Source of the DNA: Pannonibacter sp. SL95
GTDB taxonomy: Bacteria; Pseudomonadota; Alphaproteobacteria; Rhizobiales; Stappiaceae
NCBI RefSeq assembly: GCF_026672425.1
Contig: NZ_JAPPRC010000005.1
Coordinates: 372,001 to 436,000 of the forward strand
DNA: 64,000 bases
Direction: 5' to 3'
The notes under the pieces were generated by a model that worked only from the letters and a program-made list of their open reading frames with translations, searched no databases and was not told the DNA's origin. This document shows, one piece after another, positions 30,469 through 64,000 of the stretch. A program made the position numbers and the translations under genes. The first letter of the stretch is position 1, and each line of letters begins with the position of its first letter.

Positions 30469-30936
30469 ATGAGTGAATTGCAGATCGGCGACACCGCTCC
30501 GGACATCGCCCTGGCACTCGATGGTGATCGGGTCGTGCAGCTGTCATCGCTTCAGGGCAAGTCTGTCGTGATCTATTTCTACCCGAAGGCCGACACGCCC
30601 GCCTGCACGGAAGAATGCATCGCCTTCAGCCGAATGAAGGGCGACTTTGCCGCCGCAGGTGCCGAACTGATTGGTGTCTCGCCGGACGAGGCCAAGAAGA
30701 ATGCCCGCTTCAAGGCCAAGCATGAGCTGACCGTTGACCTTGCCTCAGATCCGACCAACGCCGTTTGCGAGGCCTTTGGGGTCTGGGTGGAAAAGGCCAT
30801 GTATGGCAAGAAGTACATGGGCGTTGAACGGAGCACGTTCCTGATCGGCCCGGATGGCAAGGTTGCCGGCATCTGGCGCAAGGTCAAGGTTCCGGGCCAT
30901 GCGGATGCCGTGCTGACCGCCGTGAAGGCTCTTTGA
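30469..30936 (+). CDS. bcp: thioredoxin-dependent thiol peroxidase (BCP-type peroxiredoxin)
   Basis: The 155-residue peroxidase reduces hydrogen peroxide and organic peroxides. The active-site region FYPKADTPACTEECIAFS has the peroxidatic Cys46; a second Cys, Cys50, is only four residues later, a spacing slightly different from E. coli Bcp (Cys45/Cys50). The protein ends with the usual FLIGPDGKVAGIWRKVKVPGHAD. An AAGGAA ribosome site precedes the start. The DUF455 gene follows after 26 bases, so the two are probably co-transcribed. Confidence 0.95.
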   Translation: MSELQIGDTAPDIALALDGDRVVQLSSLQGKSVVIYFYPKADTPACTEECIAFSRMKGDFAAAGAELIGVSPDEAKKNARFKAKHELTVDLASDPTNAVCEAFGVWVEKAMYGKKYMGVERSTFLIGPDGKVAGIWRKVKVPGHADAVLTAVKAL

Positions 30937-57085: not shown

Positions 57086-57159
57086 GGCCTCGTGGCGGAG
57101 TGGTGACGCAGCGGATTGCAAATCCGTGAACCCCGGTTCGATTCCGGGCGAGGCCTCCA
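57086..57159 (+). tRNA. tRNA-Cys (GCA)
   Basis: The 74-base gene has acceptor stem GGCCTCG/CGAGGCC, anticodon stem GGATT/AATCC region with loop TTGCAAA (anticodon GCA), T-arm CCCGG/CCGGG and encoded CCA. Its 3' end faces the phage-like region, so it may be the attachment site. Confidence 0.96.
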
Positions 57160-57206
57160 GCCTTCCTTTACTGACGCTGAAAACAAAGGCTTTTTCGCCT
57201 TTTTTG

Positions 57207-57247
57207 GTCCCACCTTTTTCCATGCCGGAAAAGGTGGGACTTTTTTG
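57207..57247 (+). terminator. strong terminator downstream of tRNA-Cys
   Basis: GTCCCACCTTTT and AAAAGGTGGGAC form a 12-bp stem with a 10-base loop, followed by TTTTTTG. A weaker AGGC/GCCT hairpin with a T run sits just before it. Confidence 0.9.
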
Positions 57248-57384
57248 TTCGCCCGCCGTTCCCGGGCACGACCTGCAATCCCCTATCCCGGCGCATGACC
57301 GGAGACCGCCTGTGCGGCTCCGTCCACCCCCGCGCCGGGCTGGCTGATTCCGCGTCGCACAGGCCCTCCGAACTGGAGAGCCAC

Positions 57385-57753
57385 ATGGCCCTGACCTTGC
57401 AGCAGCAAATCACCGCGCTCTATGACGCGGCATTCAACCGCCCGCCCGACGCGGCAGGCCTCGCCCATCACATCGACCTGATCACATCCGGCCAGCTGGA
57501 CCTCTACAGCGTCGCCGACGCGTTTGCCGCCAGCGCGGAGTTTGCCGCCGGCACAGGGCTCGGCGGCACGCCATCAGTCATCGTGCAACGGCTCTACAGC
57601 AACGCGCTCAACCGCGCCGGCAGCGTCGAGGAGTCCAGCGCATGGCTGGACCTCCTCTACACCGGACGCGCCGACATGGGCGACGCGCTCGCCGGATTTG
57701 CCCTGTCCGCCGAGTACGCCACCCTGGTCGGCTGGCACCACGACGCAGCCTGA
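57385..57753 (+). CDS. DUF4214-domain protein
   Basis: The 122-residue product is essentially one DUF4214 unit: ITALYDAAFNRPPDAAGLAHHIDLITSG, then ASAEFA, a second YSNALNRAGSVEESSAWLDLL and ALSAEYATLVGWHHDAA. DUF4214 repeats occur in extracellular and surface-associated proteins of alphaproteobacteria and in some phage virion proteins; no signal peptide is seen here. The start MALTLQQQI has GGAGAG upstream. It is the first gene after tRNA-Cys and could be either host or phage. Confidence 0.75.
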   Translation: MALTLQQQITALYDAAFNRPPDAAGLAHHIDLITSGQLDLYSVADAFAASAEFAAGTGLGGTPSVIVQRLYSNALNRAGSVEESSAWLDLLYTGRADMGDALAGFALSAEYATLVGWHHDAA

Positions 57754-57757
57754 CACC

Positions 57758-57790
57758 AGCCCCGGCGGCACCTCACGGCGCCGCCGGGCT
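57758..57790. terminator. hairpin between the convergent DUF4214 and methylase genes
   Basis: AGCCCCGGCGGC pairs with GCCGCCGGGCT with one bulged base. There is no T run, so it would be a weak terminator. It overlaps the last codons of the methylase gene. Confidence 0.45.
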
Positions 57791-58615
57791 CGCCAAAAGC
57801 GGGTGCTCAAAATTGGCAATGATCAGCTCGCCAAACTCGCCCGGCGCACCCTCCGAAATCGAATAGGTTACGGTCACCGGCAGCATCGTGAACCGGCCGA
57901 ATATCTCGCGCACCTCCGGCGTATCGTTGATCGACAGAATCACCCGCCCCTGCAGCCCGGCCATCAACTCAGCCAGGCGCGTAAAATCGTCACAGGCGAA
58001 CATGTCCTTGCCGTAGTCGGTCTCACAGCCGAAATACGGCGGATCACAGTAGAACAGCGTACCCGGCCGGTCATAGCGCGGGATGAACTCCTGAAACGGC
58101 AGGTTCTCGATGATGACGCCCGAGAGCCGCTCATGCACCGCCTCGAGCATGGGTGCCAGCGTCGTCAGGTCGAACCGACCGCGCCCATCGGTGACGACGC
58201 CGAAGGTCCGCCCACGAACTTTGCCGCCGAAGGCCGTCCGTTGCAGGTACAAAAACCGGGCAGCGCGCTCGAGATCCGTCAGCGTCGACGGATCGACCCG
58301 GGTGAGCCGCTCGAACTCGCGCCGGCTTGTGATCTGAAACCGGAGGCAATCGAGAAACTGCGGATAATGCCGCTGCAAGATCCGGAACAGGGTCGTCACC
58401 TCGCCGGAAAAATCATTGATCACCTCGGCACTCGGCAACACCCGCCGCCGCAGGAACACGCCGCCCATGCCCACGAATGCCTCGGCATAAAGGCTGTGCT
58501 CGACGGCAGCGATCAGCCGTGTAAGCCGCTTGGCGAGCACGCGCTTACCCCCGATCCAGGGCGCAACGGGAGAGACGGGCGAGGTTTCCCGCTCCCCAAA
58601 GAGATTTGACAACAT
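57773..58615 (-). CDS. DNA adenine methylase, D12 class
   Basis: The 280-residue enzyme methylates adenine N6 in duplex DNA. The SAM-binding region is YAEAFVGMGGVFLRRR (about residue 46) and the catalytic motif is the CDPPYFGCETDY near residue 195. WIGGKRVLAKRLTRLI near the N-terminus is the D12 family start, and INDTPEVREIF is motif-like near the end. Target sequence cannot be predicted. Lone phage methylases of this type protect phage DNA or alter host regulation. The start MLSNLFGERETS is supported by family alignment; longer starts are not. Confidence 0.9.
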   Translation of the reverse strand: MLSNLFGERETSPVSPVAPWIGGKRVLAKRLTRLIAAVEHSLYAEAFVGMGGVFLRRRVLPSAEVINDFSGEVTTLFRILQRHYPQFLDCLRFQITSRREFERLTRVDPSTLTDLERAARFLYLQRTAFGGKVRGRTFGVVTDGRGRFDLTTLAPMLEAVHERLSGVIIENLPFQEFIPRYDRPGTLFYCDPPYFGCETDYGKDMFACDDFTRLAELMAGLQGRVILSINDTPEVREIFGRFTMLPVTVTYSISEGAPGEFGELIIANFEHPLLASPAAP

Positions 58616-58785
58616 GTGGAATTGGCCTTCCTGATGCGCGCGATCTGCGGTCAGCAGAATCAGACCCACGGGTCTGATCGCGGGGCGATGCATGTCTAGG
58701 CCATCGGTCCGGTTACAATCTTGCAGGAGCGTACCGGATTGCCGGGTGATCCCGGCCCCCGCGTCAGCGGGATCTGAGTTGCCAT

Positions 58786-58803
58786 TGACTGCTCGGGCAG
58801 TCA
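58786..58803. promoter_or_regulatory. perfect inverted repeat between the methylase and small genes
   Basis: TGACTGC and GCAGTCA flank TCGG, in the divergent gap between the methylase and the next gene. It overlaps a TTGACT hexamer and could be an operator. Confidence 0.4.
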
Positions 58804-58842
58804 TGTAGCAAAAGAACAAAAAGCGAACTCTGAGCCCCCGAC

Positions 58843-59055
58843 ATGCCGCACCCCACGCTCCCGGAACACCTCCCGATCACGGTCGAGGCGCGCGATGAAA
58901 CGGGTCGCATCGTCGAGTTGATCGCGCGCTGCGCGAATGTGACCGTGGCACGCGGCGCATTCGAGGCCGCACGGACCTGCCGCCAGGGCGTCGAGATCAT
59001 GATCCGCGACCGCTCACGAGTGATCGCGGCGGAATTTTTACCAGTGGCCCGATAA
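58843..59055 (+). CDS. small phage-region protein of unknown function
   Basis: The product has 70 residues, EARDETGRIVELIARCANVTVARGAFEAARTCRQGVEIMIRDRSRVI in its central part, with a mix of short strands and helices and no membrane segment. I do not recognise it. No strong ribosome site precedes the ATG. It lies between the methylase gene and the first repeated promoter module. It is plausible as a gene because the frame fills the gap and has normal codon use. Confidence 0.5.
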   Translation: MPHPTLPEHLPITVEARDETGRIVELIARCANVTVARGAFEAARTCRQGVEIMIRDRSRVIAAEFLPVAR

Positions 59056-59060
59056 TCTTC

Positions 59061-59142
59061 TTTACAGTGCGGAATTTCCGCACTATATTTGAACCATGGC
59101 GAGGCGGTAGAGCCTAGGCCGAATGTCAGAGGAGACACACAG
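59061..59142 (+). promoter_or_regulatory. repeated promoter-operator-leader module, copy 1
   Basis: The -35 TTTACA (59061-59066) and -10 TATATT (59084-59089) are 17 bases apart. The whole spacer, GTGCGGAATTTCCGCAC, is a perfect palindrome with a central T, an ideal operator for a dimeric repressor. Then come ATGGCGAGGCGG, an AGGC/GCCT hairpin, TAGGCCGAATGTC and the AGAGGAG ribosome site of the next gene. Two more copies follow at 59418 and 60747. Confidence 0.85.
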
Positions 59143-59352
59143 ATGACCAATACGAACGACGCATACAAAGCCTGCCTCGAAGCGACCCGGTTCTCCCTGG
59201 AAGAAGCCTTGAAGGTGGTAACGGAAGCTATTTCGGACCTTGAAACGCATAACCGCAACACGTCGGTCGGCGGCCTCCTGAAAGCAGACACACCGCTCGA
59301 AACCGCTCAGGCGACCTACAAGGCCGCCCTCGCAATCCACGCGATGCGCTGA
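59143..59352 (+). CDS. small phage-region protein under promoter module 1
   Basis: The 69-residue product (MTNTNDAYKACLEATRFSLE and on) is mostly helical, with EEALKVVTEAISDLETHNRN and ETAQATYKAALAIHA, and may form a small helical bundle. I do not recognise it. The start is fixed by AGAGGAG eight bases upstream, the same site as in the other two modules; an earlier in-frame ATG lies inside the leader. It is probably repressed with the other module genes. Confidence 0.7.
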   Translation: MTNTNDAYKACLEATRFSLEEALKVVTEAISDLETHNRNTSVGGLLKADTPLETAQATYKAALAIHAMR

Positions 59353-59417
59353 GACGGACAGGGCCGCGCCTCAGCCGCGGCCCTACCAACAATTGCGCAA
59401 GGCATCTTGATTACCTA

Positions 59418-59497
59418 TTTACAACGCGGGATTTCCGCTTTATATTCTAACCATGGCGAGGCGATACAGCCTAGGCCGATGTCAGAGGAGACAGAAC
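59418..59497 (+). promoter_or_regulatory. repeated promoter-operator-leader module, copy 2
   Basis: TTTACA (59418-59423), a 17-base spacer containing GCGGGATTTCCGC, and TATATT (59441-59446) are followed by the same leader with an AGGC/GCCT hairpin and AGAGGAG before the next gene. It is about 85 per cent identical to copy 1 over 80 bases. Confidence 0.85.
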
Positions 59498-59752
59498 ATG
59501 AGCATCAAGATCACCCGCGCCGCGAAGCTTTCCAGGATCGGCAGCACCCCGCGCAGCTTCGCGGCCATGGCCGAGTACCTGCCTGACAGCGTCATCAAGT
59601 CCCTGACCAGCGCCCAGCTGGCCGAGATGATCGACGCGCTCTGGACCTGCGCAGGCGATGCGAAGGCGATTGCCGCACGCGAGGCCATCGAATCCGGCCG
59701 CGTCTGGGACGCCAAGCGCGGCGTCTCCCGCGACCTGGCCCCGCTGGCCTGA
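59498..59752 (+). CDS. small phage-region protein under promoter module 2
   Basis: The 84-residue product begins MSIKITRAAKLSRIGSTPRS and continues with MAEYLPDSVIKSLTSAQLAEMIDALWTCAGDA; it is helical and basic at the N-terminus. I do not recognise it, although the SVIKSLTSAQLAEMIDALW stretch resembles short phage accessory proteins. The start lies seven bases after AGAGGAG. A frame continues upstream into the leader (ATGGCGAGGCGATAC), so a longer form is possible in this copy only. Confidence 0.7.
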   Translation: MSIKITRAAKLSRIGSTPRSFAAMAEYLPDSVIKSLTSAQLAEMIDALWTCAGDAKAIAAREAIESGRVWDAKRGVSRDLAPLA

Positions 59753-59760
59753 CCGGCCCG

Positions 59761-59783
59761 GTGCCCGCCAAAACGGCGGGCAC
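59761..59783 (+). promoter_or_regulatory. perfect 9-bp hairpin between two small genes
   Basis: GTGCCCGCC and GGCGGGCAC form a 9-bp stem with loop AAAAC. No T run follows, so it is either a weak terminator or a structure that affects translation of the next gene. Confidence 0.45.
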
Positions 59784-59814
59784 CATGTCCAAACGATACT
59801 GCGAGGCCAAAGCC

Positions 59815-60066
59815 ATGACAGACAAGGTCGAAATCTACTGCGACAGCAACACCCACGGTGCCTTTTTTGCCAAGCAAGGCGACAAGTGGTTTACCGTCCC
59901 GTCCTGCCCCACCGGGTGGGCCAAACGGCGCGAATGGCAGCCCTGCGCGGCCATGGTGCAGCGCCTCATGCGCCACGGCATGCGGATGGGCTTCTATGGC
60001 CACGGCTGGCTGGCTGAGGCTGTTCTCGGCATTCCGCGCGACATGGTCGCAGTGACCAGGCACTGA
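59815..60066 (+). CDS. small phage-region protein with two N-terminal Cys
   Basis: The 83-residue product (MTDKVEIYCDSNTHGAFFAK) has beta-strand-like segments, then WAKRREWQPCAAMVQRLMRHGMRMGFYGHGWLAEAVLGIP. Cys9, Cys33 or so and Cys43 could bind a metal but the spacing is not a known motif. I do not recognise it. GAGG eight bases upstream supports this ATG over a GTG at 59761 that lies inside a hairpin. A terminator follows directly. Confidence 0.6.
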   Translation: MTDKVEIYCDSNTHGAFFAKQGDKWFTVPSCPTGWAKRREWQPCAAMVQRLMRHGMRMGFYGHGWLAEAVLGIPRDMVAVTRH

Positions 60067-60072
60067 CAACAA

Positions 60073-60102
60073 AACAGCCCGCTCGTTTCCGGGCGGGCTG
60101 TT
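60073..60102 (+). terminator. terminator after the small phage genes
   Basis: AACAGCCCGC and GCGGGCTGTT form a perfect 10-bp stem with a 10-base loop, followed by a short T-containing stretch. Confidence 0.75.
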
Positions 60103-60122
60103 CGCTTGGGCATGAGCCCAAC

Positions 60123-60250
60123 CTAAAGAAAAACTAGGTTTCGATCCAACACGACAGCGTTAGCCACCGCGACATTGGCATGTGCCAAGGCACATACTAA
60201 AGAACAACTAAGTTTCGATCCAGCGCGACAGGCAGGACCACCGCGACACC
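60123..60250. repeat. two imperfect direct repeats with an inner palindrome
   Basis: A block of about 52 bases starting CTAAAGAAAAACTAGG at 60123 returns as CTAAAGAACAACTAAG at 60197, with period 74. Both contain GTTTCGATCCA, CGACAG and end CCACCGCGACA. Between them lie the overlapping palindromes TTGGCA-TG-TGCCAA (60175-60188) and ATGTGCC-AA-GGCACAT (60180-60195). This arrangement is typical of operators or a protein-DNA assembly site. Confidence 0.65.
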
Positions 60251-60316
60251 GCCAGCCCCATGCGCTGACCCCTCAACCATACGATGCACCTCAGGCCCCG
60301 TCAACACGCGAGCAAC

Positions 60317-60706
60317 ATGACCATGCATTCCAACCTCGCCCAGGCGCTGATCATCCGCGCCATCGCCCGCGAAGACGCCGAGCGCGCTCTGATCGGCGCC
60401 CCCTCGCCGCCCTGCGCGCCGGCAGGTCGCCGCGGCGAACACGCCGACCACCCGGCAGCCCTGACCGCCGATGCGGTACGGCAGGAGATCAGGAGCCTCG
60501 GCGTTTGCGACATGCCCCCGGCGACCGACCTGGTCGCCACACTTCTGGAGACGCTGTCGCAGCGCCTTGGAGGCAACGGCTATAAATCCGCCTGGGAGGC
60601 CATCGGCATCAAGCCCACGCGGGGCCGGGACCTGCTCGCCCGCTCGGCCGGCGCCGTTGACTGGCCGATCTGGAAAACACTCCGGGATGCCGCGCTGGCG
60701 GATTGA
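60317..60706 (+). CDS. phage-region protein of unknown function
   Basis: The ~129-residue protein has an N-terminal helical part (MTMHSNLAQALIIRAIARED), a Pro/Arg-rich middle and a C-terminal block LGGNGYKSAWEAIGIKPTRGRDLLARSAGAVDWPIWKTLRDAAL. The last block has the pattern of a small helix-turn-helix (WEAIGIKPTRGRDLLAR) and might bind DNA. I do not recognise the family. Starts at 60317 and 60323 are both possible. It follows the direct repeats and precedes promoter module 3. Confidence 0.6.
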   Translation: MTMHSNLAQALIIRAIAREDAERALIGAPSPPCAPAGRRGEHADHPAALTADAVRQEIRSLGVCDMPPATDLVATLLETLSQRLGGNGYKSAWEAIGIKPTRGRDLLARSAGAVDWPIWKTLRDAALAD

Positions 60707-60746
60707 GCATCGCGGGCGAAAAACTCCCGCATCCACAAATCGCCCC

Positions 60747-60826
60747 TTTACAATGCGGGATTTCCGCTCTATATTCTGACCATGGCAAGGCGATGACGCC
60801 TGGGCCGAATGTCAGAGGAGACGAAA
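60747..60826 (+). promoter_or_regulatory. repeated promoter-operator-leader module, copy 3
   Basis: TTTACA (60747-60752), a 17-base spacer with GCGGGATTTCCGC, and TATATT (60770-60775) are followed by the conserved leader; here the hairpin is AGGCG/CGCCT. AGAGGAG at 60814-60820 precedes the next gene. The copy is about 85 per cent identical to the others, although it lies more than 1 kb away. Confidence 0.85.
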
Positions 60827-61456
60827 TTGACCAACGAAACCGCGTTCCGCTTCGCAGATCATCTCAGCACCCTGTGCGCCGCGCTCGGCGACGGCTGGGG
60901 GTGGACGATTGATGCCGAAATCCCGCACTACGGGCAGGTTAACAGCCCCGACGGGATTGTGTTCACCGCCGTCCATGACGCCAACAAACGCTCCGTCGGC
61001 CTCTATCTGACGCCCCCGGCTGATCACGGCCGCCCCATGTCGGTGGCTGACTGGCTGGGCGAGAACACGTTTGGCGCGTCGATTGCGCCGTCCTGGTCGG
61101 AGTCCTCGACGGCAGAACTGGCGGCAGGCCTCGTCGAAGCGGCCCTCGGCGCGTGCCACGACTGCATGCGGCAGATCAACGAGCGCAAATCCCACGTCGA
61201 GGCAGAGCGCGGCGCTGTTAACGCTATTGATGCCGACCTCGCTGCTCTCGGATTTCTGCGGCGCGGTTCCGGCCATAACGTGAGTTCGTGCTGGGTCCTC
61301 AAATCTGGCCGGCCGGGATCACCGAACCGAGCCAGCGCGACTGTCGAGTTTGAAATGTTCAGCGAACGGGCGACGGCTGATATCACGATCCCGCGCCAAT
61401 TCGTTCCGGCACTTTGCAATTTCCTCGCCGACCTCATGGCCCGGAATGCCGGCTAA
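60827..61456 (+). CDS. phage-region protein under promoter module 3
   Basis: The 209-residue protein contains RFADHLSTLCAALGDGWGWTID, IVFTAVHDANKRSVGLYLTPP, a helical ACHDCMRQINERKSHVEAERG and a C-terminal RQFVPALCNFLADLMARN. I do not recognise it. By comparison with the other two modules the start is the TTG at 60827, six bases after AGAGGAG; the ATG at 60809 is inside the conserved leader and would hide the ribosome site. A run of nine G lies 25 bases past its stop. Confidence 0.65.
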   Translation: MTNETAFRFADHLSTLCAALGDGWGWTIDAEIPHYGQVNSPDGIVFTAVHDANKRSVGLYLTPPADHGRPMSVADWLGENTFGASIAPSWSESSTAELAAGLVEAALGACHDCMRQINERKSHVEAERGAVNAIDADLAALGFLRRGSGHNVSSCWVLKSGRPGSPNRASATVEFEMFSERATADITIPRQFVPALCNFLADLMARNAG

Positions 61457-61562
61457 CCAACCGAAAAGCCCTCCTCTCACAGGGGGGGGGCAACAAACCC
61501 GCTGCGCTGGCCTGCGGCCGCCAGGCTGAGAAATCTCAGGCCTGACGGCGCTAGGCGCAAAA
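61457..61562. other. noncoding lead-in to the repeat array with G9 tract and hairpins
   Basis: A run of nine G (61482-61490) can pair partly with GCCCTCC just before it. CTGAG-AAAT-CTCAG and a GCCTG/CAGGC hairpin follow. These may end transcription from the plus-strand gene. No gene is supported. Confidence 0.45.
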
Positions 61563-61732
61563 CCCCGCGTGTGCGAGGAACGCAGTCCGCACCACCATTC
61601 GATACGGATCATCCCCGCGTGTGCGGGGAACTTAGTCCGCGCTGTGATGCGATACGGATCATCCCCGCGTGTGCGAGGAACTTAGTCCGACCCACAACCA
61701 GATACGGATCATCCCCTCGCGTGAGGGGATGC
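61563..61732 (-). CRISPR. type I-E-like repeat mini-array, four units, no cas genes
   Basis: Four hairpin repeats recur with an exact 50-base period (CCCC at 61563, 61613, 61663, 61713). On the minus strand the central unit reads AAGTTCCCCGCACACGCGG followed by GGATGATCCG; it matches the E. coli type I-E repeat at 23 of 29 positions, including both stem arms and the CCG end. Between repeats only 11 bases vary, because TATC and CGGACT next to the repeat are also conserved. Outer units are degenerate. The short variable part and absence of cas genes argue against a normal array. Confidence 0.45.
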
Positions 61733-61761
61733 CGCATCCTATGCGCGCAGTTTGCGCGGTG

Positions 61762-62093
61762 TCAACTCCGCCCCCGCCACAGCCCCAACACATCGCGCGC
61801 TGTCGCCAGCGGGTCCCTGCTTGCCCGCAGCGCGAACGCAGCCCAGTTGCGCCCCGTGAGCGCCAGCCCCGCCGCCACCGCGTCCGACCAGGTCGGGTCG
61901 AGCGACAAAACTGCCGGATCGGCTCGGCGAAAATCACCGCCGCGCCGAGCCCTGCCGCCACCGCCAGCAGCCGCCCCCACAGGGACAGGTCCCGCTGCAT
62001 CAACGCGCCGAGAACGGCAAAGGCGAGTATCATCAGCCATTTGGTCAGCGACGCGTGGGCAAGCCATTGCCCGATCAGATCAATCAGTTTCAC
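61762..62093 (-). pseudogene. phage membrane protein of the lysis cassette, with frameshift
   Basis: The first frame gives MKLIDLIGQWLAHASLTKWL, with two hydrophobic segments to about residue 60 (IFAEPIRQF). The conserved remainder (LSLDPTWSDAVAAGLALTGR, then NWAAFALRASRD) is in another frame. One missing T at TTTT (AAAA 61907-61910 on the plus strand) explains it; adding it gives a 110-residue protein reading RQFLSLDPTW. The GTG start follows AGGAG. It could be a holin or antiholin. The frameshift may be real or a sequencing error in a homopolymer. Confidence 0.65.
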
Positions 62094-62337
62094 CGCATCG
62101 CTCCTGTAAAGTGTCAATTCGCGCCAGCGACAGCACCAGCCGGTCGCTCGCGTGGTCCATATCCTCCGGCTCCCAGCTGACAGCCGCCAGCAACGGCCGC
62201 AGCTGTTCGCAGGCCAGCGCCCGGTCAGCGCCGCCGGCTGCCGTGCTGACGAGCGGCGGCCCGCTCGCGCAGCCGCTGGCGCAGAGCGTCAAGGCCCCCG
62301 CCACCAGCCACCATCTGATCAACCGTCCATCTCGCAT
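62080..62337 (-). CDS. Rz1-like outer-membrane spanin lipoprotein
   Basis: The 85-residue product has a lipoprotein signal (RWWLVAGALTLCASGC, lipobox Cys near residue 23). After it come ACEQLRPLLAAVSWEPEDMD and ARIDTLQERC, with the Cys-LRP...S...D...Cys layout of Rz1-type o-spanins in many phages. It overlaps the preceding i-spanin gene by 113 bases in a different frame, the usual Rz/Rz1 arrangement. With the i-spanin it would fuse inner and outer membranes at lysis. Confidence 0.72.
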   Translation of the reverse strand: MRDGRLIRWWLVAGALTLCASGCASGPPLVSTAAGGADRALACEQLRPLLAAVSWEPEDMDHASDRLVLSLARIDTLQERCGETD

Positions 62338-62476
62338 CCCGCACCTCCTCGCGCACAGCCTGCGCGGCCTGCCCCCGGCCCTCGGCCCGGGTGAGACGGA
62401 TCAACCGCCAGCGATCGAGGAGCTGGCCGGCAAACGCGGCCAGCACCTCGGCTAGAATCGCCCACACCGTAGCCAT
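62225..62476 (-). CDS. Rz-like inner-membrane spanin
   Basis: The 83-residue protein has an N-terminal membrane segment (about residues 2-20, ATVWAILAEVLAAFAGQLL) followed by a charged helical region (RAEGRGQAAQAVREEVRDA and ALRQRLRERAAARQ). This is the i-spanin layout. The start MATVWAIL is 4 bases after the upstream holin-like gene stop, and the Rz1-like lipoprotein gene begins inside it in another frame. Confidence 0.65.
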   Translation of the reverse strand: MATVWAILAEVLAAFAGQLLDRWRLIRLTRAEGRGQAAQAVREEVRDARWTVDQMVAGGGGLDALRQRLRERAAARQHGSRRR

Positions 62477-62480
62477 CGGC

Positions 62481-62948
62481 TCAGCCCTGAGACCGCCCGA
62501 CAACACCGTCGCCGTTGAGATCCGCACCGAGCCGCGCCTCGATCATCTCGACGAGCCGCCCCCGGTCGATCCCGAAATAGGTCAGCGCCTGCGGCACCGC
62601 CGCCATCGCATAGCGCGCGGCCTCGGCCACCATCTCGTTGCGGAGATCCACCGTCAGCGGCCCGGCCGTCACCCTGCCAACCTTGGACCGGGCGAAATCC
62701 ACCGCGTAAAACAGCGCGTCCTGCAACCGAGCCCGCATCTGCTCGTCGAGCTGCATGTCCGCGCGATCCTCAAACACGGCAATCGCCCGGCGCAACAGCC
62801 AGAGCAAAGCGCCGGCCAGCAGCGTCAGGCCGATCTCGATCACGGGCGCCGCCATCGGCGACAGGTCGACCACGGTCGAGGCCGCAGCCGGGTTGAGGGC
62901 AAGCAAAAGCAGGCCAGCGCCGAGCGCCAGCGTCATCATCATGCGCAT
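62481..62948 (-). CDS. holin-like phage membrane protein
   Basis: The 155-residue product has two hydrophobic segments (about residues 3-24 and 34-53) with a signal-like cut after PAAAS between them. A long helical tail follows with ARLQDALFYAVDFARSKVG and EMVAEAARYAMAAVPQALTYFG. The tail pattern resembles the LL-H-type holin superfamily. GGAGA precedes the start. It lies between the endolysin and the spanins, which fits a lysis role. Confidence 0.62.
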   Translation of the reverse strand: MRMMMTLALGAGLLLLALNPAAASTVVDLSPMAAPVIEIGLTLLAGALLWLLRRAIAVFEDRADMQLDEQMRARLQDALFYAVDFARSKVGRVTAGPLTVDLRNEMVAEAARYAMAAVPQALTYFGIDRGRLVEMIEARLGADLNGDGVVGRSQG

Positions 62949-62973
62949 GTCAGTCTCCTGGGATTGCGAGGCG

Positions 62974-63651
62974 TCACGCCTCGTTTGTGGTCACCTGACC
63001 CTCAGCGGTCAGGGCGACAGGACCGGTCAGCGGCAGCGGCACCGAGGCCGGCCACCGGAAGCCGAGCAGCCGATCGCGGGCGATGCGGGCAATGCTCACC
63101 ATGTTCGATTGATTGCCGCCGAGAATGTGATAGTGCGTCGCGTCCTCGCCGACATAGAACCCGACGTGTCCGGACGAGCCCGTCCGCGAGCCGCGCCAGA
63201 ACACTGCCACCGCGCCGACAGACGGCCGCGCCAGCTTCACGCCGAACGTGAGCCAGTTGCGGGCGAGATACGGATTGGTGGGCAGCACCTCATTTGTCAG
63301 CGCCAGTGCAAGCGAGGTCTCGACAAAATCCCCGCACCAGGGCAGCCGCGACGGATCGCCCAGCGTTTTGCCGTCCGACCGCAGCCAGGCCATCAGCCCG
63401 CCCCGGTTGCGCCGCTCATGCAGCCCCATTTTGGAGCGGGCGACGGTCAGCCAGGACGGCTCCAGATCGCCAGACACCGGCCCCAGCAGCGCACGACGCG
63501 TCACCGGCCCGACGATCCCGTCCGGCGTCAGGTTATGCGCTGCCTGAAACCGCACGACAGCCGCGCGCGTGCGCCGCCCGGGAATGCCGTCAATCGCCCC
63601 GGGCCGAAAGCCCTTGGCCTCCAGCGCCCGCTGGATCTCTTTCCAGTCCAT
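62974..63651 (-). CDS. phage endolysin, peptidoglycan-binding plus CHAP/TIGR02594-type domain
   Basis: The 225-residue protein starts with a peptidoglycan-binding_1 domain (about residues 1-55, EIQRALEAKGFRPGAIDGIPG then AAVVRFQAAHNL). The catalytic domain of the TIGR02594 type follows, with PWCGDFVETSLA (catalytic Cys) and SGHVGFYVG (catalytic His). No signal peptide is visible, so it probably needs the holin. The start MDWKEIQ was chosen because GGAG lies six bases upstream; the ATG four codons earlier directly follows a terminator T run. Confidence 0.85.
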   Translation of the reverse strand: MDWKEIQRALEAKGFRPGAIDGIPGRRTRAAVVRFQAAHNLTPDGIVGPVTRRALLGPVSGDLEPSWLTVARSKMGLHERRNRGGLMAWLRSDGKTLGDPSRLPWCGDFVETSLALALTNEVLPTNPYLARNWLTFGVKLARPSVGAVAVFWRGSRTGSSGHVGFYVGEDATHYHILGGNQSNMVSIARIARDRLLGFRWPASVPLPLTGPVALTAEGQVTTNEA

Positions 63652-63663
63652 CTCGATCTCCAT

Positions 63664-63688
63664 AAAAAAAGGCCCGCCGAAGCGAGCC
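63664..63688 (-). terminator. rho-independent terminator before the endolysin gene
   Basis: On the minus strand GGCTCGC and GCGGGCC form a 7-bp stem (one G-T pair) with a TTCG tetraloop, followed by seven T. It ends transcription of the upstream phage gene, so the lysis genes may need their own promoter or antitermination. Confidence 0.85.
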
Positions 63689-63714
63689 AGAAGGTCACAT
63701 TGTGTGCGGGATAA

Positions 63715-64000
63715 TCAGGCGACGATGTCCACCTCGGTCAGCGTCCGCAAATCGTAGTCATCCCCCATCCACTGGGGGAACACCCGCTTGCGCAGGCTGT
63801 CGAGCGGATAGCTCGGATTGAGGTAGACGACATAAGGCAGCCCCTGCCGGGCAAGATCCGCATCCGCAGCGGCCACCAGTTCCGGCAGGCCGGTCAACAG
63901 ATGATCCGCACGCACCGCCAGCCAGACGCCGGGGACAATGATTTGAGGCGTCAGCTCGTAGCCCTCGTCGTCAAACGTCGCATCTTGAGCGTAGACCGTG
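63715..64000 (-). CDS. phage protein, C-terminal part (runs off the right edge)
   Basis: About 95 residues are visible, from VYAQDATFDDEGYELTPQII through PGVWLAVRADHLLTGLPEL to the stop at 63715 after DYDLRTLTEVDIVA. There is no start within the window in good context; a GTG at 63915 is only internal. The sequence looks globular, without membrane segments. Position upstream of the lysis cassette suggests a tail or host-contact protein, but I do not recognise it. Confidence 0.65.
   Translation of the reverse strand, partial: TVYAQDATFDDEGYELTPQIIVPGVWLAVRADHLLTGLPELVAAADADLARQGLPYVVYLNPSYPLDSLRKRVFPQWMGDDYDLRTLTEVDIVA

Follow-up and report, generated by a model that had tools for sequence, protein, structure and literature searches.

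Results

A promoter-leader module is repeated among small prophage genes

The window analysed here, 64,000 nucleotides of Pannonibacter sp. SL95, is located close to the end of contig C5 of the 5.04-Mb genome, and its last part belongs to a prophage in which one promoter-leader module is repeated in front of small genes. The prophage starts at the 3' end of a tRNA-Cys gene (57086-57159), with identity to a second prophage copy beginning at 57143. It opens with an adenine methyltransferase gene on the minus strand (D12 class, 2.8e-21), followed by a gene of 70 residues (58843-59055, plus strand) directly upstream of the first module. The modules then occur among small plus-strand genes, and downstream of them come a repeat array and minus-strand lysis-type genes.

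A preliminary description of this DNA had noted three copies of the module, and all three are borne out. TTTACA stands at 59061, 59418 and 60747, followed each time by exactly 17 bases, TATATT and a leader with the sequence AGAGGAG, whose GGAG ends 6-8 bases upstream of the start codons ATG, ATG and TTG of modules 1, 2 and 3, respectively. The consensus of the three copies reads TTTACA-N2-GCGGRATTTCCGC-N2-TATATT. In the module 1 promoter (59061-59089; plus strand, like all features of the three units), the hexamers at 59061-59066 and 59084-59089 enclose a 17-base dyad spacer. The palindrome reported there is indeed perfect, but it covers 19 bp (AGTGCGGAATTTCCGCACT, 59066-59084) and not the 17 bases originally claimed. 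The promoters of modules 2 (59418-59446) and 3 (60747-60775) contain the dyad core GCGGGATTTCCGC, at 59426-59438 and 60755-60767. In both, G replaces A in one half-site and the outer bases do not match, so that only copy 1 is a perfect palindrome; given these deviations, the dyad core common to all copies is the 13-mer GCGGRATTTCCGC.

Searching the window with TTTACANNGCGGNATTTCCGCNNTATATT and allowing up to three mismatches returned three matches, all without mismatch and all at the modules, where 100 dinucleotide-preserving shuffles gave 0.00 matches on average. A sigma-70 scan of 57100-64000 gave five promoter-like sites (shuffle mean 0.7), three of which are the modules. The dyad in the spacer of three near-consensus promoters fits the competition between repressor and polymerase that had been suggested from the sequence.

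Module 1 leads into gene 1 (59143-59352, 69 residues), after which a GC-rich hairpin at 59361-59383 (stretch 59353-59400, -20.4 kcal/mol) forms a possible terminator without a U-run. Module 2 is followed by gene 2 (59498-59752, 84 residues), a second GC-rich hairpin at 59760-59784 (stretch 59752-59795, -25.9 kcal/mol) and a second gene of the same unit (59815-60066, 83 residues). A further hairpin at 60073-60103 (stretch 60064-60112, -25.7 kcal/mol) is terminator-like on the minus strand and precedes the gene of a 129-residue protein (60317-60706), whose C-terminal domain is modelled as a helix-turn-helix (HTH). Module 3 stands in front of gene 3 (60827-61456, 209 residues, TTG start). Genes 1, 2 and 3 have no significant family match, the second gene of unit 2 has no family at the curated cut-off, and Rfam recognised tRNA only on the stretch.

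The promoter set is phage-specific

When the whole genome and related phages were searched, the module recurred in the prophage of a sister species (G001) and in a 50-kb phage from IMG/VR. Its exact sites are not spread randomly through the genome: all seven lie in copies of this prophage, three in the window, three on contig C6 and one on contig C2. The pattern is carried by two of the 101 genomes searched, namely the SL95 genome and that of the same-genus G001, which has two copies, one with a single mismatch; in IMG/VR one contig was positive, again with two copies. This restriction to prophage and phage DNA, in two of 101 genomes and one IMG/VR contig, supports the earlier proposal of a coordinated, phage-specific promoter set. 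We regard the existence of the promoter set and its restriction to phages as established.

The near-consensus pattern TT[TG]AC[AT]-N16-18-TA[AT][AT][ATC]T matched modules and nothing else, with three matches in the contig end of the window, one on C2, two in the IMG/VR phage (50 kb) and one in the surroundings of the G001 prophage (90 kb), where the other module has TATCTT and is hence missed. An exact scan of the genome_contigs collection, from which very near records may be left out, gave no match. Looser patterns in viral_contigs returned seven further loci, which were rejected as each is without the other hexamer at the right place. BLAST of 59040-60840 against phages found no match, while BLAST of 57200-64000 against plasmids returned 21 records; in the 20 listed, all matching sequence falls within the DNA adenine methylase or endolysin genes, and the three flanks inspected showed unrelated neighbourhoods. 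Outside the prophages, a weak match to the -10/leader part was seen at G000:C3:893305-893338 (83% over module positions 28-62, E 0.028).

For most of their length, the three copies of the prophage share 99.4-99.6% identity; two of them are located at contig ends. In C2, a run of well over 100 G (1500-1648) occupies the place of modules 1 and 2. This run is probably an assembly artefact, so that the absence of these modules from C2 is uninformative. Given the near-identity, the contig-end positions and the G run, the number of prophage copies is uncertain and may be fewer than three.

Promoter and dyad are kept across phages while the leader differs

Six distinct module copies from three phages were compared: three from the window, two from the IMG/VR phage and the first of the two in G001, whose second copy is identical to window copy 3. 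Among these, 23 of the 29 promoter columns are invariant, and the variable ones comprise two flanking bases on either side, one half-site base and one -10 base. The leader is common within the window type, whereas the IMG/VR phage has its own leader, the same in its two copies. The two leader types are only loosely alignable (41-43 identical letters in 65-68 alignment columns), and window copy 1 against the IMG/VR leader scored 9.0, less than the 12.0 reached by the best of 500 shuffles. Across phages, therefore, promoter and dyad have been retained, whereas the leader has diverged or been replaced; copies within one phage stay alike.

The neighbourhood is also shared. The window, G001 and the IMG/VR phage all have a relative of the 70-residue gene, one or more modules with variable genes, a conserved hairpin and the 129-residue gene, in that order. 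The relative of the 70-residue gene is immediately upstream of the first module in the IMG/VR phage and more distant in G001, where other genes without a module intervene. Over the hairpin at 60073-60103, a stretch of 38-39 bases matches the IMG/VR phage and the G001 prophage at 97-100% identity. What the three phages have in common includes the 70-residue gene and the 129-residue protein near the modules and, elsewhere, a GcrA-like protein.

The next unit of the IMG/VR phage (L049:4142-5069) has a stretch that looks promoter-like by eye, with the dyad ATACACCATTGGTGTAT, followed by a gene of 133 residues and one for a small HTH protein that matches Aca2/YdiL weakly and below the cut-off (E 8e-4). 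These two genes are a possible acr-aca pair, that is, an anti-CRISPR gene with its regulator, where CRISPR stands for clustered regularly interspaced short palindromic repeats. The neighbourhood has the look of an acr-type hotspot.

The leader carries a predicted hairpin

The preliminary description held that conservation continues past the promoter into the leader, which is the case: aligned with copy 3, copy 1 shows 84% identity over 77 bases and copy 2 shows 88% over 76. The module 1 leader (59090-59142) contains a predicted 5' hairpin, GGC.AGGC(6)GCCU..GCC, ahead of the Shine-Dalgarno sequence AGAGGAG. The module 2 leader (59447-59497) has the same stem and is one base shorter within the aligned leader, and in that of module 3 (60776-60826) the hairpin has the greatest predicted stability (z -3.1). 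All six leaders are predicted to fold into a hairpin close to the probable start, with z from -0.5 to -3.1 and the weakest values in the IMG/VR phage. Across the four distinct window-type leaders, none of the 14 paired hairpin columns varies, as against six of the nine unpaired ones (hypergeometric p 0.0008 within the hairpin, p 0.007 over the whole leader). As the structure was chosen after the sequences had been seen and the copies are related, this statistic is support and not proof.

The further suggestion of a role for the leader RNA itself stands in part: changes avoid the hairpin stem, but the leader of the distant phage differs, and duplication of whole units would also give alike leaders. 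The simplest role for the hairpin would be in mRNA stability or access to the ribosome-binding site. A bolder reading, by analogy, is that an RNA-binding HTH protein may control the leader, as Aca2 reportedly does. Two other candidates were rejected. An attenuator based on the upstream mini-open reading frame MARR* is discounted because the IMG/VR leaders lack its ATG and, in copy 2, the frame runs on into the gene. For an N4-type hairpin promoter, which serves a virion polymerase, the largest open reading frame of C2 (1897 residues) was considered and resembles a tape measure protein by eye.

The dyad has a candidate reader outside the immunity region

One repressor had been implied for all copies. 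Control by the prophage's immunity repressor is not supported, since its gene differs between the phages and the dyad does not. Looking for HTH genes in the rest of the prophage did yield a CI-type HTH_3 gene (C2, 34.4-35.1 kb), but its immunity region has no close copy of the module dyad. The CI-type gene has HTH_3 alone in C2, HTH_26 with Peptidase_S24 in the IMG/VR phage and HTH_26 alone in G001, and the three have no mutual tblastn match at E 1e-4. In the immunity regions, the sites closest to the 13-mer have two mismatches (C2) or three (IMG/VR phage, G001 prophage), and other dyads are found there: GCACGCTTTGGCGTGC in C2 and ACATATGGACCCATATGT beside the IMG/VR repressor gene. The putative operator is therefore not shared with the immunity region and does not vary together with repressor type. 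Since the CI-type genes differ and the dyad is conserved, the dyad probably has another reader; with no near site in the immunity regions, a CI regulon is unlikely and the dyad is probably not a classical prophage operator.

A search for the 13-mer with at most one mismatch recovered the one module of C2 and the two modules each of the IMG/VR phage and the G001 prophage. Apart from these, it gave a single site in C2, within gene 3, one in the IMG/VR phage, at 30904, and three in the 90-kb surroundings of the G001 prophage, all outside its immunity region. The site inside gene 3 is the one-mismatch dyad GCGGGATTTCGGC (60914-60926 in the window, minus strand), 159 bases downstream of the module 3 dyad and present in C2, C6 and G001 too; it is either a candidate second binding site or a chance occurrence within a conserved gene.

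The 129-residue protein is encoded in the same cluster as the modules in all three phages, with 80-87% pairwise identity. Modelled with a fourth sequence from a Stappia record, its C-terminal 74 residues (predicted local distance difference test, pLDDT, 76) form helices at 34-40 (7 residues) and 45-55 (11 residues) with a four-residue turn between them. Nine of the 13 Foldseek matches listed against PDB are XRE/Cro-CI/HipB/CII-type or similar phage regulators, none of them significant (best E 2.8). A PDB sequence search with the profile of the protein found nothing, and relatives were restricted to the same IMG/VR phage in viral_contigs and the Stappia fragment in genome_contigs, with none in the phage and plasmid collections. 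The gene in the window differs from its relatives in a short stretch resembling two compensating indels. Upstream of it lies a 74-base tandem duplication (60101-60248, copies 73% identical) that is apparently single in G001 and the IMG/VR phage. The 129-residue protein is a good guess as a candidate Aca-like regulator of the modules, and the dyad is, as predicted from sequence, likely an operator.

A CRISPR-repeat mimic array adjoins the modules

About 100 bases beyond gene 3 lie four hairpins resembling type I-E CRISPR repeats (61555-61735, minus strand) with a 50-base period, the last of which (~61580-61556) looks like an intrinsic terminator by eye. The minus strand is the crRNA sense of the array, which ends in CCTCGCACACGCGGGGTTTT, a sequence that the scan did not call as a terminator. 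A predicted promoter, TTGACA-N18-TAGGAT (61736-61765, minus strand), with the dyad CGCGCAAACTGCGCG in its spacer, reads into the array. Over 26 bases, mimic and host repeats differ by one change. The array is 94.5% identical between the window and G001 (181 columns), with flanks at 89.8% and 80.7%, and from window to G001 the first mimic hairpin shows a paired, compensatory change of CCCCTC..GAGGGG to CCCCGC..GCGGGG. No such array was found in the IMG/VR phage (best single site 5 mismatches), and an exact search of viral_contigs for the repeat mimic gave no match. The array is a candidate multi-repeat RNA anti-CRISPR. The gene preceding it (61762-62117, minus strand) appears frameshifted relative to a 116-residue IMG/VR relative, through either a sequencing error or decay to a pseudogene.

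The host itself has a type I-E locus (L071, G000:C4:216001-236000) in which cas3, cse1, cse2, cas7, cas5e, cas6e and cas1 match NCBIfam models, with cas genes between and beside two arrays of 61-base period and 32-base spacers. We extracted 149 spacers from the genus, 30 from the SL95 genome (G000), 67 from G002 and 52 from G004, and matched them at an E threshold of 0.1, at which the match counts for G002 and G004 are lower bounds. At least one G002 spacer matches the G001 prophage (28/32, preceded by GGA), and at least two distinct G004 spacers match the IMG/VR phage, one at 30/32 (present twice; AAA before) and one at 28/32 (AAG before). These matches of spacers from sister-species arrays (L076 and L077, of G002 and G004) link the IMG/VR phage to this host genus, in which CRISPR pressure is real. 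The 30 spacers extracted from the host itself gave no match to its own prophage beyond short words (≤15 bases among mismatch-free matches).

Discussion

We propose that the module serves as the common early promoter of a regulon of phage accessory genes, probably for anti-defence, which an Aca-like repressor keeps in check, and we put the probability of this reading at about one half. Each unit would consist of a strong sigma-70 promoter whose hexamers flank a 13-bp dyad, a hairpin-first leader and one or two small genes, with GC-rich hairpins after units 1 and 2. At infection, the bare promoters would fire immediately; a phage HTH protein, most likely the 129-residue product of 60317-60706, would accumulate, bind the dyad and shut the units off, much as Aca proteins act on acr operons. 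The unit genes would most likely serve counter-defence or other host-takeover functions. The role of the dyad as operator, its binding by the 129-residue protein, the timing and the anti-defence role are what we infer from the arrangement described above. An anti-defence role is plausible from context, and the small-gene set is probably counter-defence because an RNA gene that looks like CRISPR repeats adjoins it.

Several observations weigh against this proposal. The palindrome is perfect in one of the three window copies, and the co-occurrence of dyad and 129-residue protein rests on three phage lineages. The full-length model of the protein is poor (pLDDT 51), its domain has no significant PDB match and none in a BFVD fold search at E ≤ 0.001, and the protein matches nothing in Pfam, which includes an Aca2/YdiL model, or in NCBIfam at E ≤ 1; its single PHROG match is insignificant and of unassigned function (E 0.044). 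Because its gene has no module of its own and is separated from unit 2 by the terminator-like hairpin, autoregulation is not visible. Family searches, which did not include a dedicated anti-CRISPR collection, gave no name to the proteins downstream of the modules. Two of the three spacer matches on related phages are without AAG before the target, and, as the 30 extracted spacers of the host do not match its own prophage, there is no need to invoke CRISPR inhibition for survival there.

Other explanations account for part of the evidence. The modules may be constitutive moron promoters, unregulated and spread by duplication or gene shuffling, with an incidental dyad and a leader that merely travels along. 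Units 1 and 2 do look like promoter-gene-hairpin units, with clear predicted promoters and hairpins of -20 to -26 kcal/mol (albeit with poor U-runs), the single perfect palindrome is as this explanation would have it, and the leader is uniform within each phage but not the same in the window type as in the IMG/VR phage, as concerted copying predicts. However, an unconstrained 17-base spacer should drift, and the 13-mer within it is as invariant across phages as the hexamers, while the leader has diverged; we hold this explanation to be rather unlikely. An immunity-type regulon, in which the CI repressor of the prophage would bind the modules and keep their genes silent in the lysogen, would suit a dyad inside the sigma-70 promoter of a temperate phage that has a CI-type HTH_3 gene, but the immunity regions hold other dyads and no site with fewer than two mismatches, and the three repressor genes are mutually unmatched, which makes such a regulon improbable.

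Activation of the modules by a phage GcrA-like protein together with sigma-70 is quite improbable. Pfam GcrA is matched in C2 (2.7e-14; L035:11970-12839) and in the IMG/VR phage (1.1e-25; L051:1841-2647), and the C2 protein has a relative in the G001 prophage, but the GcrA-linked methylation site GANTC is contained in none of the six modules and leaders, and the promoters look strong unaided. In the C2 protein, the N-terminal HTH segment appears repeated by eye. Binding of the dyad by a host regulator could draw on the abundance of GCGGRATTTCCGC at up to one mismatch in the SL95 genome (32 and 37 sites on the two strands, against 8 and 14 for the reversed control), which would leave room for a looser host site, and on the precedent that alphaproteobacterial phages can be under host CtrA, as excerpts of one study describe (PMC9437464). 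Against it, all seven exact genomic sites lie in prophage copies, the module is absent from 99 of the other 100 related genomes, and a host regulon is accordingly very improbable. The modules also lack CtrA, LexA or GANTC sites.

The regulatory arrangement proposed here has relatives among known systems. In acr-aca operon promoters, the Aca site lies within the core promoter, according to excerpts of two papers (PMC9410906, PMC9410881). The modules likewise combine, as predicted, a near-consensus -35/-10 with an inverted repeat between or over the hexamers (perfect in copy 1 only), small phage genes and a candidate HTH gene nearby. They differ from the operons so described in that the promoter-leader is repeated before separate units, and in that the candidate regulator has no Pfam or NCBIfam match and is not last in a module operon. 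Archaeal viruses place one conserved promoter sequence before unrelated small anti-defence genes, and a small DNA-binding repressor has been proposed for it (excerpts of PMC11065993). Common to both cases are a strong-promoter element before unrelated single small genes and variation outside the core between viruses. The present case, in contrast, concerns a bacterial phage with sigma-70 hexamers and a conserved leader with a predicted hairpin, and anti-defence is here a candidate function.

Similarly, the mimic array shares with RNA anti-CRISPRs (Racrs) and other solitary repeat units the mimicry of a host repeat by a prophage, the same I-E subtype, a position directly after a predicted promoter and adjoining small genes. 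The Racrs described in excerpts of PMC10651486 are solitary, and the finder published there discards clustered repeats, whereas the present array has four repeats at a 50-base period. Short repeated elements among small phage genes are also known from mycobacteriophages, as the 17-bp dyads of Cluster O and the SAS/ESAS, with inverted repeats in the SAS, of Cluster K (PMC4351075, PMC3203893). As those sources present them in part, most Cluster O sites are off predicted promoters and SAS stand at translation starts, unlike the exact dyads described here, all of which are inside the promoter.

The present dyad is without a close copy at the immunity region and does not follow repressor type. It differs in this from the P1 c1 operators, L5 stoperators and lambdoid morons, which are dispersed operators or promoter-gene-terminator units in temperate phages. 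Each element resembles known things, and our searches of the open-licence literature turned up no bacterial phage that combines a repeated promoter-leader cassette with a multi-repeat CRISPR mimic.

A more ambitious, and unlikely, version of our proposal would make the region a two-layer counter-CRISPR island. Inhibitor genes would stand behind a stamped-out promoter, one new HTH regulator would read both the dyad and the leader hairpin, and a separately controlled RNA with four mimics would load Cas6e/Cascade with unusable guides. If these readings are true, repeated promoter-leaders could serve as bait for counter-defence genes in bacterial phages, as in archaeal viruses, and the regulator would possibly fall outside the known Aca families. 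The cassette would offer a natural test of whether one protein governs it both at the DNA, through the GCGGAATTTCCGC dyad, and at the leader RNA, and the array would represent RNA anti-CRISPRs with several repeats, a form that the published search is designed to discard.

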